Source of the DNA: an uncultured Treponema sp.
GTDB lineage: Bacteria > Spirochaetota > Spirochaetia > Treponematales > Treponemataceae
Assembly (NCBI GenBank): GCA_949299755.1
Contig: CASGBA010000006.1
Location: 124,001-188,000 of the forward strand
Length of the DNA stretch: 64,000 bases
Direction: 5' to 3'
The notes under the pieces were generated by a model. The model was not told the origin of the DNA. It saw nothing but the letters and a program-made list of their open reading frames with translations, and searched no databases. Of the stretch, positions 19,538 to 27,084 are shown one piece after another. Positions within the stretch are counted from its first letter, which is position 1, and every line of letters begins with the position of its first letter. Made by a program: the position numbers and the translations under genes.

Positions 19538-20383
19538 TCACATCATATAAAATACCAGAAGATTTGTCCCCGTCTCGGAACACAAAGTAAGGGATGAACC
19601 TGAAATACGGTAAGAGACCGTTTTTCCGAGCAAATCCAAATAAGCCGCCTCAACCTCTCCCATCGCAGGAGTAGGAGGGGCTACCCGGGTTGTTCCAAGA
19701 GGACCAAAAGATACAGCCCTGGTTTTGGAATCTGAAGTAAAGGAGCTGATAATTCTGTTAACACCCGTTGAACCGGAAAGGTTTCCCGCATCTCCGAAAA
19801 CAAGTGTGGGTATATCAACATGGGTAGGCAGGGAAACCACAGCGTTTCCGGTGTTATAGGAAGAAAGGCACCAGGATGTATCAGCCAAATTAAAACGTTT
19901 GAAAACCATTACATTAGTTTTATTCAAATCCGACAAGGTAAGGGTTGTGTCATCGGAAGAAATGGAAACAGCTTCTACCTTGGAAAGCATTTGGAGGAAT
20001 ACCCGTTCAAACCTTTCCGCTTTTGGACTACCAGCCGCCAAAGTAACAGCGGGAGGATTCTCAAGGAGCGGGCCTCCATCAAAAGAAAGGGTTCCATTGT
20101 AGGAATTCACACCGGAAAAACCGTAAACCACGAAAACATCTTCCCCTGTTTTGTCAGCGGAAAAACTGATTCCGGTAGTCTTTCCGGAAGCATCCAATTC
20201 CGCTATAAAATCAGCTGCCCCTTCATAACCATCGTAAAGGGTTATATCATATTCAACTGAGGAAAGGATCCAGTCACCGGAAATATCAACAGCCGATGTT
20301 TCCAAAGCCTTGGTAGATGCACAGGAAGAGAAAAAAGCGCATACAACCGAAATTCCGGCACACAATGCCAAAACGTTTTTCAT
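19538..20383 (-). CDS. META-domain (HslJ-like) lipoprotein with two repeats
   Basis: 281 residues with a lipobox at FFSSC, so probably an envelope lipoprotein. The part from about 170 is a META domain: ADTSWCLSSYN, PTLVFGDAGNLSGSTGVNRI, the GPLGTTRVAPP turn and the LDLLGKTVSYRISGSSLTLC end. The first half (SGDWILSSVEYD, TGISFSAD, VYGFSGVNSYNGTLSF, LTLSDLNKTNVMVFKR) looks like a second, more diverged copy. META/HslJ proteins occur in heat-shock, motility and virulence contexts without a known activity. It is convergent with the EAL gene and divergent from the DUF1538 gene. Confidence 0.82.
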   Translation of the reverse strand: MKNVLALCAGISVVCAFFSSCASTKALETSAVDISGDWILSSVEYDITLYDGYEGAADFIAELDASGKTTGISFSADKTGEDVFVVYGFSGVNSYNGTLSFDGGPLLENPPAVTLAAGSPKAERFERVFLQMLSKVEAVSISSDDTTLTLSDLNKTNVMVFKRFNLADTSWCLSSYNTGNAVVSLPTHVDIPTLVFGDAGNLSGSTGVNRIISSFTSDSKTRAVSFGPLGTTRVAPPTPAMGEVEAAYLDLLGKTVSYRISGSSLTLCSETGTNLLVFYMM

Positions 20384-20549: not shown

Positions 20550-22034
20550 ATGAATTTGACCGTAAAGCTCAAAGAGACAACAGCCTCAATTGTCCCCATA
20601 ATGATAATCGTCATCATTCTTGGCTGTACGGCGGCTCCCCTTGGCGGTGAACTTCTGTTACAATTCATAACAGGGGGAATCCAGGCAATCATCGGGCTAA
20701 CGTTATTCCTTGTGGGTGTTGACATGGGAATTCTTCCCATCGGAACGGCTGTAGGAGCCGCCCTCGTAAAAAAAAGGAATCTGGTTCTGCTTCTTTCAGC
20801 CGCTTTTATCACAGGTTTCTTTGTCACAGCGGCAGAACCTGATGTGCAGGTTCTTGCCGACCAGATCATGTCCGTAAGCCCGGATATAAACAAATTGCAA
20901 CTGGTTTTAATGATTTCCGCCGGAATAGGATTATTCACCACAATAGGTCTTTTAAGGACTGTTTTATCCATTCCTCTCCATTGGGTACTGATACTCTCTT
21001 ACGGGTTCACATTCATGTTGGCAGCCTTTACTCCGGCAAAATTCCTGGCTGTCGCCTTCGATTCCGGAGGGGCTACAACCGGTCCCATGACCGTTCCATT
21101 CATAATGGCCTTGGGCGTCGGTGTGGCAGCCGTAAGAGGCAGAGACAATGACAGCTTCGGATTAACCGGAATAGCGTCAATAGGTCCCATAGGGGCCGTT
21201 TTACTCTTCGGGATCATGAGCGGCAATTCAAGCGGAACAGTGGAAAAAGCGGCTGAAGAAACTGCAGCCGGAATGGCAGTTTTTTATTCAATACTTCCAG
21301 GTGTCTTTTCGGAAGTATTGAAGGCCCTTTTACCCCTGACAGTTCTTTTTATAGTGTTCCAAATAACCCTGGTAAAAATGCCTCCCCTCCAAGTAAGAAA
21401 AATGATAAAAGGTATTATTTACAGTCTTTTCGGTCTTATACTTTTTCTTACAGGCGTGAAGGGAGGATTCATGCCTGCAGGAACAAAACTAGGGGAAATT
21501 CTGGGAACTTTTTCCATGCAATCGGAGTCTGTGGACGGCTACACCATCCTTTTGGTCGCTGTTGGTCTTATCCTGGGAGCTGCGGTAGTTTGCGCAGAAC
21601 CGGCTGTATGGGTTTTAACTAACCAAGTGGAAGAAGTTTCCGGAGGCACGGTCAAAAGAAGACTGCTTCTTATCGCCCTGTCGGCTGGGGTTGCCCTTTC
21701 CATTGGTCTTTCTATGATAAGAGTAATCCTCGGATTCAGCATATGGTGGTACCTTATTCCCGGTTATGCGGCCGCATTGACTTTAACTTTCTTCTGCCCA
21801 AGAATGTTTACGGCTGTGGCTTTTGACTCAGGAGGTGTGGCTTCAGGCCCCATGACATCCACATTCATTCTATCATTTACCTTGGGAGCAGCCATAGCCT
21901 ATGGAGGAAATCCAGTAACAGACGCATTCGGTGTAATAGCCCTGGTTGCGATGACACCTCTGATAACAATTCAAATTGTGGGATTGGTTTTCCGTAACAA
22001 AATGCAGAAAAATGAAAAAGGGGTAACGGCATGA
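20550..22034 (+). CDS. DUF1538-family membrane protein (putative transporter)
   Basis: 494 residues, about twelve membrane helices arranged as two similar halves. The first half has LIGLTLFLVGVDMGILPIG in shortened form (GLTLFLVGVDMGILPIGTAVG), AAEPDVQVLADQI and FDSGGATTGPMTVPF; the second repeats LFLTGVKGGFMPAG, CAEPAVWVLTNQVEE and FDSGGVASGPMTSTF. This internal duplication with paired AEP and SGG.GPMT motifs is what I recall of DUF1538, a family of predicted transporters with unknown substrate. The stop overlaps the start of a tandem PII-like gene (ATGA), so transport is probably gated by that protein. Confidence 0.85.
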   Translation: MNLTVKLKETTASIVPIMIIVIILGCTAAPLGGELLLQFITGGIQAIIGLTLFLVGVDMGILPIGTAVGAALVKKRNLVLLLSAAFITGFFVTAAEPDVQVLADQIMSVSPDINKLQLVLMISAGIGLFTTIGLLRTVLSIPLHWVLILSYGFTFMLAAFTPAKFLAVAFDSGGATTGPMTVPFIMALGVGVAAVRGRDNDSFGLTGIASIGPIGAVLLFGIMSGNSSGTVEKAAEETAAGMAVFYSILPGVFSEVLKALLPLTVLFIVFQITLVKMPPLQVRKMIKGIIYSLFGLILFLTGVKGGFMPAGTKLGEILGTFSMQSESVDGYTILLVAVGLILGAAVVCAEPAVWVLTNQVEEVSGGTVKRRLLLIALSAGVALSIGLSMIRVILGFSIWWYLIPGYAAALTLTFFCPRMFTAVAFDSGGVASGPMTSTFILSFTLGAAIAYGGNPVTDAFGVIALVAMTPLITIQIVGLVFRNKMQKNEKGVTA

Positions 22035-22696
22035 ACTATCAATTGATGATTATGATTATTCCACACAACGAAGGGGAAAGGATAACATCCGTCTTGAAAA
22101 AAGCCGGGGCTACAGGGGGTACAGTAGCCATGGGCCGTTCCTATTCTGAAAACAAGGTTTTACGGCTTTTCGGTTTTGGAGAGACATCCAATGACATTGT
22201 GTTCTGTGCCGCTGAAGACGGACGGAAAGAAAAACTGATTAAGGCTCTGGAAGAAGAAACTGAAAATGAAAAAGAGGATTATGGAATACTTTTATCCCTT
22301 GATATAACAAAACTGTATAAAAGCGGGGAAAAAGACATAAAATCTTCAGGAAAAAGGGAGGAACCTGCAATGGATGCAAAGGAACATAAAAAACATGAAC
22401 TTATTACGGTGATTTTAAATAAGGGATTTGCGGATGATGCGATGGCCGCCGCCCGTTCCGCCGGAGCAGGAGGAGGAACTGTGATTCACGGACGGGGAAC
22501 CGCCCGTCCGGAAGACGCTTCCTTTTTCGGCATAACCCTTGTACCGGAAAAGGAAATCCTTCTCATCCTGACTGAAAAGGAAACCGCATCCGCTGTACTG
22601 GAAGCCCTGCATAAACTTCCGTGTCTTTCCCAACCGGGAAGCGGAATAGCTTTCTGCATAGAGACAATGGATTTTATAAACCTGGGCAAAAAATAA
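22031..22696 (+). CDS. Tandem PII-like signalling protein
   Basis: 221 residues made of two similar ferredoxin-like halves (about 1-95 and 118-215) joined by a charged linker. Each half opens with a beta strand and has the GGTV signature (AGATGGTVAMGRS; AGAGGGTVIHGRG), then a central acidic strand and an ALEEET/ALHKLP helix. This resembles PII/GlnB-like proteins, but the uridylylated T-loop tyrosine of GlnB is not evident. Coupled by ATGA to the DUF1538 gene, it probably regulates that membrane protein in response to a small ligand, as PII-like proteins do for other transporters. Confidence 0.82.
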   Translation: MNYQLMIMIIPHNEGERITSVLKKAGATGGTVAMGRSYSENKVLRLFGFGETSNDIVFCAAEDGRKEKLIKALEEETENEKEDYGILLSLDITKLYKSGEKDIKSSGKREEPAMDAKEHKKHELITVILNKGFADDAMAAARSAGAGGGTVIHGRGTARPEDASFFGITLVPEKEILLILTEKETASAVLEALHKLPCLSQPGSGIAFCIETMDFINLGKK

Positions 22697-22731: not shown

Positions 22732-23145
22732 TTAAAAAGAATTTGAAGTATGGAAACCGTTGACCGTCATAAAGGCAACCTTGTTCCCCAAATCATCCGA
22801 TATTTCCACTGTATACAGACAGGTACTCCTGCCGGATTTTACGCACTTTGCCTCACCCCTGAGAACGGATCCCTTCGCCTTTCCCACAAAGGATATTTGG
22901 CTTGAAAGGGAAACGGAGCTGCCGGAGACATCGCTGTTATTTGAGGCCACGGCAAAACAAAAATCCGCAAGGGTGAATATCGCCCCGCCCATAACAGATC
23001 CGGCCGCATTCAAATGTACGGGAAGGATTTTCATGGTGCATTCAGAATAACAGGGGCCGGCTTTTTCTATAACAATACCCGCGGCCTCGGTGGCGAATTT
23101 GTCAGCAGCGAAACGCTTTTTTATGTCTTCTAATGATGATTCCAT
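22732..23145 (-). CDS. PaaI-type hotdog thioesterase
   Basis: 137 residues from the ATG at 23145; the frame is open for 22 more codons upstream, but a start there would make an atypical N-terminus. The hotdog signature HLNAAGSVMGGAIFTLADFCFAVASN is intact in position, with Asn and Gly of the loop and the acidic residue on the long helix (short quote: LNAAGSVMGGAIFTLADF). SSQISFVGKAKGSVLRGEA and the final strand fit PaaI/YdiI acyl-CoA thioesterases. The substrate, probably an aryl- or acyl-CoA, cannot be read. No strong ribosome site. Confidence 0.82.
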   Translation of the reverse strand: MESSLEDIKKRFAADKFATEAAGIVIEKAGPCYSECTMKILPVHLNAAGSVMGGAIFTLADFCFAVASNNSDVSGSSVSLSSQISFVGKAKGSVLRGEAKCVKSGRSTCLYTVEISDDLGNKVAFMTVNGFHTSNSF

Positions 23146-23233
23146 AAACGAAATATATCCCCAAGCAGGGCGGATGTCCATACATATACACATATAACAT
23201 CGATCCGCCAAATAGTTTTACGGTATTAGAATT

Positions 23234-25150: not shown

Positions 25151-26107
25151 ATGAAGCTTAAATATCAGCCAGGAAAACTCAAAAAAACCATCATCCGGGT
25201 GGCAGTGGTTCTTATAATCCTGTCATGTATCGCCACATCTGTATTCATAGTCGATCAAACTGAAGACAGTGTAATAACAAGATTCGGGAAATATCAGAAA
25301 ACGGTGGGACCGGGGTTGCATTTCAAACTTCCCTTTGGAATTGACCGCCATTACAATGTGCCCACAAAAATAGTACAGACAGAGCAATTCGGATTCAGAA
25401 CCGTGGGGGCATCCCAAACTTATTCCCAGGGAAATTTCGCCAGGGAATCCACCATGCTCACCGGGGATTTGAATATCGTTGACGTGGAATGGATAATCCA
25501 ATACAGGATAAACGATCCCAGGGCCTGGCTTTTCAATGTGCTGAAAGATGTGCGTGTAAGCACAATCAGGGATGTATCACAAGCTGTAATAAATGCCCTT
25601 GTGGGGGACAGGGCTATTCTGGATGTTATCGGTCCAGAAAGGACTGCGATAGAAACAAACGCCGTGACAATGATGAATGCTCAGCTCCAGGAATTCGGTC
25701 TTGGGGTCTCAGTAATAAGTGTCCAGCTTCAGAATATTGTACCCCCGCCGGGTGTCCAGGCAGCCTTTGAAGACGTGAACAAGGCAATACAGGATATGAA
25801 TAGGCTGATAAATGAGGGTAAAGAAGCCTACAACTCAGAAATCCCCAAGGCTGCCGGTGAGGCGGAACAGATGATACAGGTTGCGAAAGGTTACGCCACA
25901 GAACGCATAAACAGGGCTTCCGGGGAAACAGCCCGGTTCAACGCTGTTTACAACGAATACAGGAAAGCGCCGGAGGTAACTAAAAACAGGCTATACCTTG
26001 AAACCTGGGAATCCCTCTTCTCTGAAAAAGAAGGAACATCCCTTGTAGACAAGGATTTGGAAAACTTCCTCCCTATCAAAAACTTAGAACAAGGAGCTGT
26101 CCAATGA
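25151..26107 (+). CDS. hflK: HflK, FtsH protease modulator
   Basis: 318 residues. A single N-terminal membrane helix (about 13-31) is followed by an SPFH/band 7 domain: VDQTEDSVITRFGKYQKTVG, GLHFKLPFGIDRHYNVPTK and the RDVSQAVINALVGDRAILDV helix. A later coiled region (INEGKEAYNSEIPKAAGEAEQ) ends with FLPIKNLEQGAVQ. In E. coli HflK and HflC form a large cage around FtsH and modulate degradation of membrane proteins. The stop overlaps the hflC start (ATGA). It lacks the Gly-rich N-terminus of the E. coli protein. Confidence 0.93.
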   Translation: MKLKYQPGKLKKTIIRVAVVLIILSCIATSVFIVDQTEDSVITRFGKYQKTVGPGLHFKLPFGIDRHYNVPTKIVQTEQFGFRTVGASQTYSQGNFARESTMLTGDLNIVDVEWIIQYRINDPRAWLFNVLKDVRVSTIRDVSQAVINALVGDRAILDVIGPERTAIETNAVTMMNAQLQEFGLGVSVISVQLQNIVPPPGVQAAFEDVNKAIQDMNRLINEGKEAYNSEIPKAAGEAEQMIQVAKGYATERINRASGETARFNAVYNEYRKAPEVTKNRLYLETWESLFSEKEGTSLVDKDLENFLPIKNLEQGAVQ

Positions 26108-27084
26108 AAAAAAAGACTGCCGGAATTATCTGTATATTGGTTGTCCTGGCAATCATTATAAGCGGAACCTTTTATGTGATAGACGAGGGAACCCAGTGTG
26201 TTGTAATCAGGTTCGGTGAAATCGTCCGTTCCACAACCAAAGCAGGGCTGAACATAAAAGTTCCGTTCATAGAAAACATAGTAGTTTATCCGAAAAAGGT
26301 TATGTCTTTGGAAGGAGACTCCCAGAGGATACCTACGAAAGAAAACCAGTTTATAATTGTCGAAACCACAAGCCGGTGGAGAATTATCGATCCGGTTAAA
26401 TTCTATGAATCTTCAACCACCATTGAAACAGCTTATTCCCGGCTGAGCGACATAGTTGATTCAGCGGTGCGTACAGTAATCACTTCATCAGGATTGAATG
26501 AAGTAGTCCGCAGTTCCAATTTGATAAATGAACTCCAGCATGAAGAAAATTTCGCCCTGGGGAATGACGCGGAGGAAGTCGAGCTTGAGGATTTATCCAC
26601 CGGGGAAAAAATCGTCTATGAAACAATAACCCGCGGAAGACGGGCTTTAAGTTCTGAAATGGCGGATATCGCCAGGGAAAAGGTTCCGGAATTCGGAATA
26701 GAGCTTTTGGACATTGTTCCACGTCAGATAAAATATTCCGATGAGCTTACCGAAAGTGTTTATAACCGGATGACAAAAGAACGGAATCAAATTGCCCAAA
26801 GGTTCCGTTCCACAGGCGAAGGCAGGAAAGCCGCCTGGATGGGTATGCTGGAAAACGAACGGAAACGGCTTCTTTCAAGCGCTTACAGTACATCGGAAAA
26901 AATCCGGGGAGAGGCGGATGCGGAAGCTTCAAGGATTTATGCGGAAGCTTACAGCAAAGACCCGGAATTTTTCCGGTTTTGGCGCAGTATGGAAGCCTAT
27001 AAAACCACCGTCCCCAATTTTGACAAGATTTTAACAACAGAAATGGATTTTTTCCGGTATTTGCATTCGCCATCGGGCCGCTGA
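26104..27084 (+). CDS. hflC: HflC, FtsH protease modulator
   Basis: 326 residues. A membrane helix at about 6-24, then YVIDEGTQCVVIRFGEIVRS and GLNIKVPFIENIVVYPKKVM, the SPFH/band 7 signature of HflC, followed by the TSSGLNEVVRSSN region, the EFGIELLDIVPRQIKY strand and a long Ala/Glu-rich coil (RGEADAEASRIYAEAYSKDPEFFRFWRSMEAYK). Partner of HflK in the FtsH-associated complex. It is followed after 36 bases by an unrecognised gene that may be in the same transcript. Confidence 0.94.
   Translation: MKKKTAGIICILVVLAIIISGTFYVIDEGTQCVVIRFGEIVRSTTKAGLNIKVPFIENIVVYPKKVMSLEGDSQRIPTKENQFIIVETTSRWRIIDPVKFYESSTTIETAYSRLSDIVDSAVRTVITSSGLNEVVRSSNLINELQHEENFALGNDAEEVELEDLSTGEKIVYETITRGRRALSSEMADIAREKVPEFGIELLDIVPRQIKYSDELTESVYNRMTKERNQIAQRFRSTGEGRKAAWMGMLENERKRLLSSAYSTSEKIRGEADAEASRIYAEAYSKDPEFFRFWRSMEAYKTTVPNFDKILTTEMDFFRYLHSPSGR

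Follow-up and report, generated by a model that had tools for sequence, protein, structure and literature searches.

Two genes lie in tandem in the window (the whole analysed stretch of 64,000 nucleotides, from an uncultured Treponema sp.): positions 20550..22034 of the plus strand encode a DUF1538 membrane protein of 494 amino acids, and positions 22031..22696 of the same strand encode a tandem PII-like protein of 221 amino acids. The ATG of the second gene occupies positions 22031–22033 and the TGA stop of the first one positions 22032–22034, the shared bases being ATGA (22031..22034, plus strand); the overlap described in the earlier note is thus real, both open reading frames having these coordinates, and the two genes may be translationally coupled through it. 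The flanking genes, at 19538–20383 upstream and 22732–23211 downstream, are both on the minus strand, and hence no further gene appears to be part of the two-gene unit. A scan for promoters and terminators gave no signal above that of shuffled sequences. Rfam searches in 39 sources yielded, near the pair, only tRNAs, T-boxes, and parts of group II introns; control by a riboswitch was rejected, as no ion- or nucleotide-sensing family matched near the pair in these sources. Further downstream in the window, two genes next to each other at 25151–27084 look by their sequence like an ordinary HflK/HflC-type (SPFH) pair.

The source genome (2.35 Mb, 99% complete) has one DUF1538/PII pair. No canonical PII was found in it above the threshold, in a search that did not pick up the tandem protein either, and from which weak relatives could thus have escaped. 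The closest named relatives of the transporter come from Treponema and other spirochaetes, with identity up to 61%.

The 494-residue protein matches the Pfam family PF07556 in two stretches (E = 1.4e-127, 423.6 bits with the cut-off of 22.6), and profile–profile comparison of its halves by hhalign gives a probability of 100% and E = 6e-47, in agreement with the two matching halves noticed earlier. The first half (residues 6–223, positions 20565..21218, plus strand) is UmpA-like, scoring 106 bits with NF041627 versus 74 with NF041628, and the second half (residues 251–475, positions 21300..21974, plus strand) is UmpB-like, scoring 97 bits with NF041628 versus 74 with NF041627. Residues of note are E96, D98, R136, and D171 in the first half and E350, R391, and D426 in the second one. 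Each half has the AEP and FD motifs (E96/E350, P97/P351, D171/D426), and the equivalent acidic residues E96/E350 and D171/D426 are kept in 99% of 113 DUF1538 halves of all types, including the UmpAB-like ones. Judging from this conservation, E96/D171 and E350/D426 are candidate ion or proton sites in the membrane.

Structure prediction, proposed in the earlier note for each protein, produced AF2 models with mean pLDDT of 93.8 and pTM of 0.92 for the transporter, and mean pLDDT of 89.2 and pTM of 0.84 for the PII-like protein. Sequence searches found no solved relatives of the transporter; comparison of its model with solved structures by Foldseek gave no convincing match (best E of 3e-3, TM 0.13), and the best Z in VIA-align, 5.4, is at the background level. 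This lack of a structural match does not show that the fold is new.

In the 221-residue protein, the Pfam family P-II (PF00543) is matched in two stretches (E = 8e-7, 29.8 bits with the cut-off of 25), the two halves are similar to each other in the hhalign profile–profile comparison (probability 99.7%, E = 4e-27), and the AF2 model consists of two units of the beta-alpha-beta-beta-alpha-beta type, with a linker of low prediction confidence between them at approximately residues 101–120. The earlier description of two PII-like halves in one chain is therefore correct. The N-terminal domain (residues 1–96, positions 22031..22318, plus strand) is a divergent paralogue homologous to the C-terminal one (residues 121–220, positions 22391..22690, plus strand). 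The C-terminal half superimposes on the PII structure 1hwu with Z of 11.1 and rmsd of 1.7 Å over 84 residues. An unrelated fold of the second protein, which would have spoken against the earlier proposal, is contradicted by both the P-II profile match and the PII fold of this half. No PII-type Pfam family other than P-II matches at E up to 1, and the remaining sub-threshold match is to an unrelated family. The automatic NCBI annotation of the partner is “P-II family nitrogen regulator,” and the top PDB sequence match of the PII-like family profile is 9p1x chain H, which looks NifI-like.

DUF1538 loci were collected by whole-genome searches in four bacterial groups and from named contigs and plasmids, and scanned with both family profiles. 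Collapsing loci with the same 40-residue core left 193 distinct DUF1538 loci, a set weighted to strong DUF1538 matches, with Pseudomonadota present by plasmids only. PII-like domains are encoded in the same cluster at 190 of these 193 loci, in Spirochaetia, Desulfobacterota, Clostridia, and Planctomycetota. Of the three exceptions, two are at a contig edge, the contig stopping 0 and 27 bases past the DUF1538 gene, which leaves the pairing at 190 of 191 readable loci; the only true exception is G147, where a PII-like gene is located elsewhere, far from DUF1538. Conversely, in G129 the PII-like gene is kept and DUF1538 is absent. The spacing between the paired genes never exceeds 150 bases, and the reading frames overlap at 120 of the 183 measured loci (an upper figure, as each frame was started from the first possible codon), by exactly 4 bases in 44. 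Thus, the pair is conserved and not scattered among genomes, an outcome that would have spoken against the earlier proposal, which had called for this search; the pairing is close to obligate and not due to chance. In two Alphaproteobacterial plasmids, the transporter genes are split and one single PII gene comes after them. No DUF1538/PII locus was found in E. coli genomes, and neither the IMG/VR scan with an UmpB-like query nor PHROGs gave a match.

In the open-licence literature, we found no publication linking DUF1538 and PII. PII–transporter pairs as a kind are already known, and the partner has been annotated in part automatically.

The organization of the genes varies. A single DUF1538 half is observed at eight clear loci (L215–L221, L242), all of which have exactly one single PII domain. 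Separate A and B genes are accompanied by one PII (L144, L235–L237, and apparently also L143, with A truncated), by two PII genes (L229), or by a tandem PII (L238, L241). The fused AB transporter occurs with two separate PII genes at 11 loci and with a tandem PII at 140 loci, including the window, and five loci encode AB and a PII domain in one reading frame, this domain being of the C-type in L212, L222, L223, and L224, and of the N-type in L225. Finally, L213, L214, L247, and L248 have a long form of DUF1538 (about 700 amino acids, its second half enlarged by a long insert), and the partner of this form, about 380 amino acids long, has two detected PII domains and a third, N-terminal one seen by eye; it could be a single-chain PII trimer. 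The earlier note had suggested that the fused PII pair matches the two-fold symmetry of the duplicated transporter. As a rule, this does not hold, since a two-half transporter may be accompanied by one, two, or three PII domains, encoded by one gene or several; what stands is the one-to-one correspondence at the single-half loci (eight out of eight).

Several individual loci deviate from these types. At L084:3702-7488, two transporter genes flank one tandem PII gene (DUF1538 – tandem PII – DUF1538). At L226:1653-3183 and L243:4919-6284, the DUF1538 frame is in two pieces with overlapping frames, which may reflect a frameshift, an error in the assembly, or a gene that is truly split. In many Treponema relatives, mtnN (SAH/MTA nucleosidase) is located upstream of the pair (a cluster present at 18 loci), with luxS in 15 loci and birA after the pair in 12; this setting is found at L062:4706-10322, L063–L067, L070, L074, L075, L078, L081, L085, L089, L100, and L209, the last one (G129) having the order mtnN–luxS–PII–birA with DUF1538 missing. 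The pair in the window does not have the mtnN–luxS setting.

In the PII tree, the N-type domains from both separate and tandem genes form one group (SH-aLRT 93), and the C-type domains group with stand-alone single PII-like proteins. In the DUF1538 tree, the split members L144, L238, and L229 precede the fused clade in both A and B halves (support 98 and 99), and the UmpAB-like proteins A and B, which are separate from the rest, group together with support 99, hinting at a separate duplication. The PII doubling in L238 also seems to be independent. These are quick trees of short sequences, and the order of events that they outline is suggestive only: one PII would have been followed by an N/C pair of PIIs, then by the transporter fusion, and then by repeated fusions of the PII genes, so that the PII duplication may be older than the transporter fusion.

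With regard to function, UmpA and UmpB of Halomonas zhaodongensis, both DUF1538 proteins, were shown to carry out Na+(Li+,K+)/H+ antiport as a heterodimer, at pH 6.5 to 9.5 and only upon co-expression of both proteins (PMC5484666). This antiporter is functional in E. coli when the subclone includes no genes other than the two of DUF1538 (PMC5484666). The halves of the window protein follow the umpAB operon order, UmpA-like and then UmpB-like, according to the NCBIfam scores. The earlier statement that the substrate is unknown was thus incomplete and too pessimistic, and the 494-residue protein most likely is a single-chain version of the UmpA+UmpB heterodimer, that is, a predicted alkali-cation/proton antiporter. 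The window transporter scores far below the NCBI equivalog cut-offs (167.6 bits of 490 for NF041627 and 157.3 of 500 for NF041628), which, together with the separate position of the UmpAB-like group in the tree, means that the Na+/H+ assignment crosses subfamilies. Loci of Desulfobacterota that are far closer to UmpAB (355 and 316 bits) likewise have a PII gene directly downstream.

A regulated transporter of another cargo, such as a metal, an anion, or a metabolite, is the alternative that survives best, being possible if not probable: the sole characterized DUF1538 pair belongs to a different subfamily, the transporter model has no confident match to solved folds, and the presence of mtnN and luxS upstream in many Treponema relatives provides a metabolic setting. 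However, this setting is absent from the window, the acidic residues E96/E350 and D171/D426 are common to nearly all halves, the UmpAB-like ones included, and cation transporters adjoin the pair in other genomes (Na/Ca exchangers in L235 and L215, a Na/H exchanger in L244).

To characterize the potential ligand, the PII-like domains were mapped onto eight canonical PII sequences taken from five of the same genomes. In GlnK, nucleotide binding relies on T29, Q39, G87, D88, K90, R101, and R103, while K58 contributes to the binding of 2-oxoglutarate (PMC8395244). The PII-like domains keep K58 (36 of 39 C-type and 30 of 38 N-type domains; K174 in the window protein), as well as G27, T29, G35, and G89, with T29 and G27 weaker in the N-type, and have lost Q39, D88, K90, R101, R103, and the Y51 region. 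In the C-type, the K90 position is occupied by I, V, L, M, or A in 39 out of 39 domains, Q39 is present in four out of 39, R101 and R103 are not conserved, and the Y51 position is F, L, M, W, or I. The T-loop is approximately 5–6 residues shorter than the canonical one and has a hydrophobic FFG-like tip. As most of the residues binding ATP and 2-oxoglutarate are gone, a GlnB-like readout of ATP/ADP/2-oxoglutarate by the tandem protein is unlikely, whereas the strong retention of K58, T29, and G27/G35/G89 in the C-type suggests a retained pocket.

A possible ligand is c-di-AMP, which would be at hand, as each of the 11 genomes checked, including the source genome, has a diadenylate cyclase gene. 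At L235:4138-5580, the opposite strand encodes a diadenylate cyclase that carries the sensor domains DACND and DACNH, about 1.1 kb upstream of umpA, beside the gene of a Na/Ca exchanger and upstream of umpA–umpB–PII. This single adjacency, the sole such case among the 11 genomes, lends weak support to c-di-AMP as the ligand.

We favor, as somewhat better than an even bet, an interpretation in which the tandem protein acts as a PII-type gate dedicated to an alkali-cation/proton antiporter, the latter being the single-chain form of UmpA+UmpB. The tandem PII would dock on the cytosolic face of the UmpAB-like antiporter in a ratio of about one tandem PII per transporter, and would switch it between active and inhibited states in response to a ligand other than the classic ATP/ADP/2-oxoglutarate; judging from the natural fusions, each transporter chain would have about one N and one C domain. 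A regulatory role would be the natural reading of the tandem PII; direct binding, gating, substrate, and ligand are what we infer for this pair. There are precedents for such control: GlnK acts as a plug of AmtB, and SbtB, once AMP is bound to it, keeps SbtA locked (PMC10710835).

The second alternative, that the tandem PII is a constitutive subunit or an assembly factor of the transporter with no ligand-controlled switch, is rather improbable. The near-obligate pairing, the direct fusions, and the loss of most canonical ligand residues could all fit it, but the pocket apparently retained in the C-type domains argues for a ligand, and the Halomonas UmpAB works in E. coli from two DUF1538 genes alone. 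This activity in the absence of a co-cloned PII fits PII as a regulator, not a catalytic subunit. E. coli has PII proteins of its own, and hence the activity is no proof of independence from PII. The reverse relationship, with the transporter sequestering at the membrane a PII-like protein that has other cytosolic targets, is very improbable, since, despite the known membrane sequestration of a PII protein in GlnK–AmtB (PMC10710835) and the PII-like gene without DUF1538 in G129, PII domains are at times covalently fused to the transporter and no other partner gene is found repeatedly outside a single lineage.

Within the preferred reading, that is, a PII-type gate on the antiporter, there is a more specific version, which we regard as a long shot, in which the N and C paralogues would cap a two-fold pseudo-symmetric, non-trimeric antiporter in response to a ligand that is neither ATP nor 2-oxoglutarate. 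According to a 2023 review, the transporters on which PII proteins act are all capable of working as trimers; a PII-capped non-trimeric antiporter, if true, would break this pattern. The series of arrangements (single, split, fused, and three-domain) offers natural constructs for fixing the stoichiometry.

Few bacterial signalling proteins are as widespread as the PII proteins, and so far a handful of systems have been described in which these act directly on a transporter (PMC10710835). A near-obligate PII partner of DUF1538 would extend PII control to the pH and salt balance, and would give DUF1538 annotations a testable mechanism.

Among known systems, UmpAB belongs to the same Pfam family as the window transporter and has two homologous halves in the order A, B, with the AEP and FD motifs present in the UmpAB-like relatives, but it is a heterodimer encoded by two separate genes, whereas the window protein is one chain well under the equivalog cut-offs, and no PII partner is named for UmpAB (PMC5484666). 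The c-di-AMP receptors DarA/PstA, and also CutA1, share the PII superfamily fold with altered loops, but, among the PII-type Pfam families, the window protein matches P-II alone, with no match to the c-di-AMP receptor family at E up to 1. Canonical GlnB/GlnK proteins consist of one domain, with Q39, K90, R101, R103, and a long, Y51-containing T-loop, none of which is present here. NifI1/NifI2 of methanogens are similarly an adjacent pair of paralogous PII genes acting on one target; these genes are unfused, and the target is nitrogenase rather than a transporter. No Amt or SbtA partner was encountered, the partner in the window matching only DUF1538 in Pfam. In GlnK–AmtB, as here, a PII-fold protein is encoded beside a transporter, which it would be expected to block from the cytosol; AmtB, however, is trimeric and unrelated to DUF1538. 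SbtA also is a trimer of another family and SbtB is single-domain, but SbtB–SbtA resembles our pair in that a non-canonical PII-like protein is dedicated to one Na+-linked transporter.
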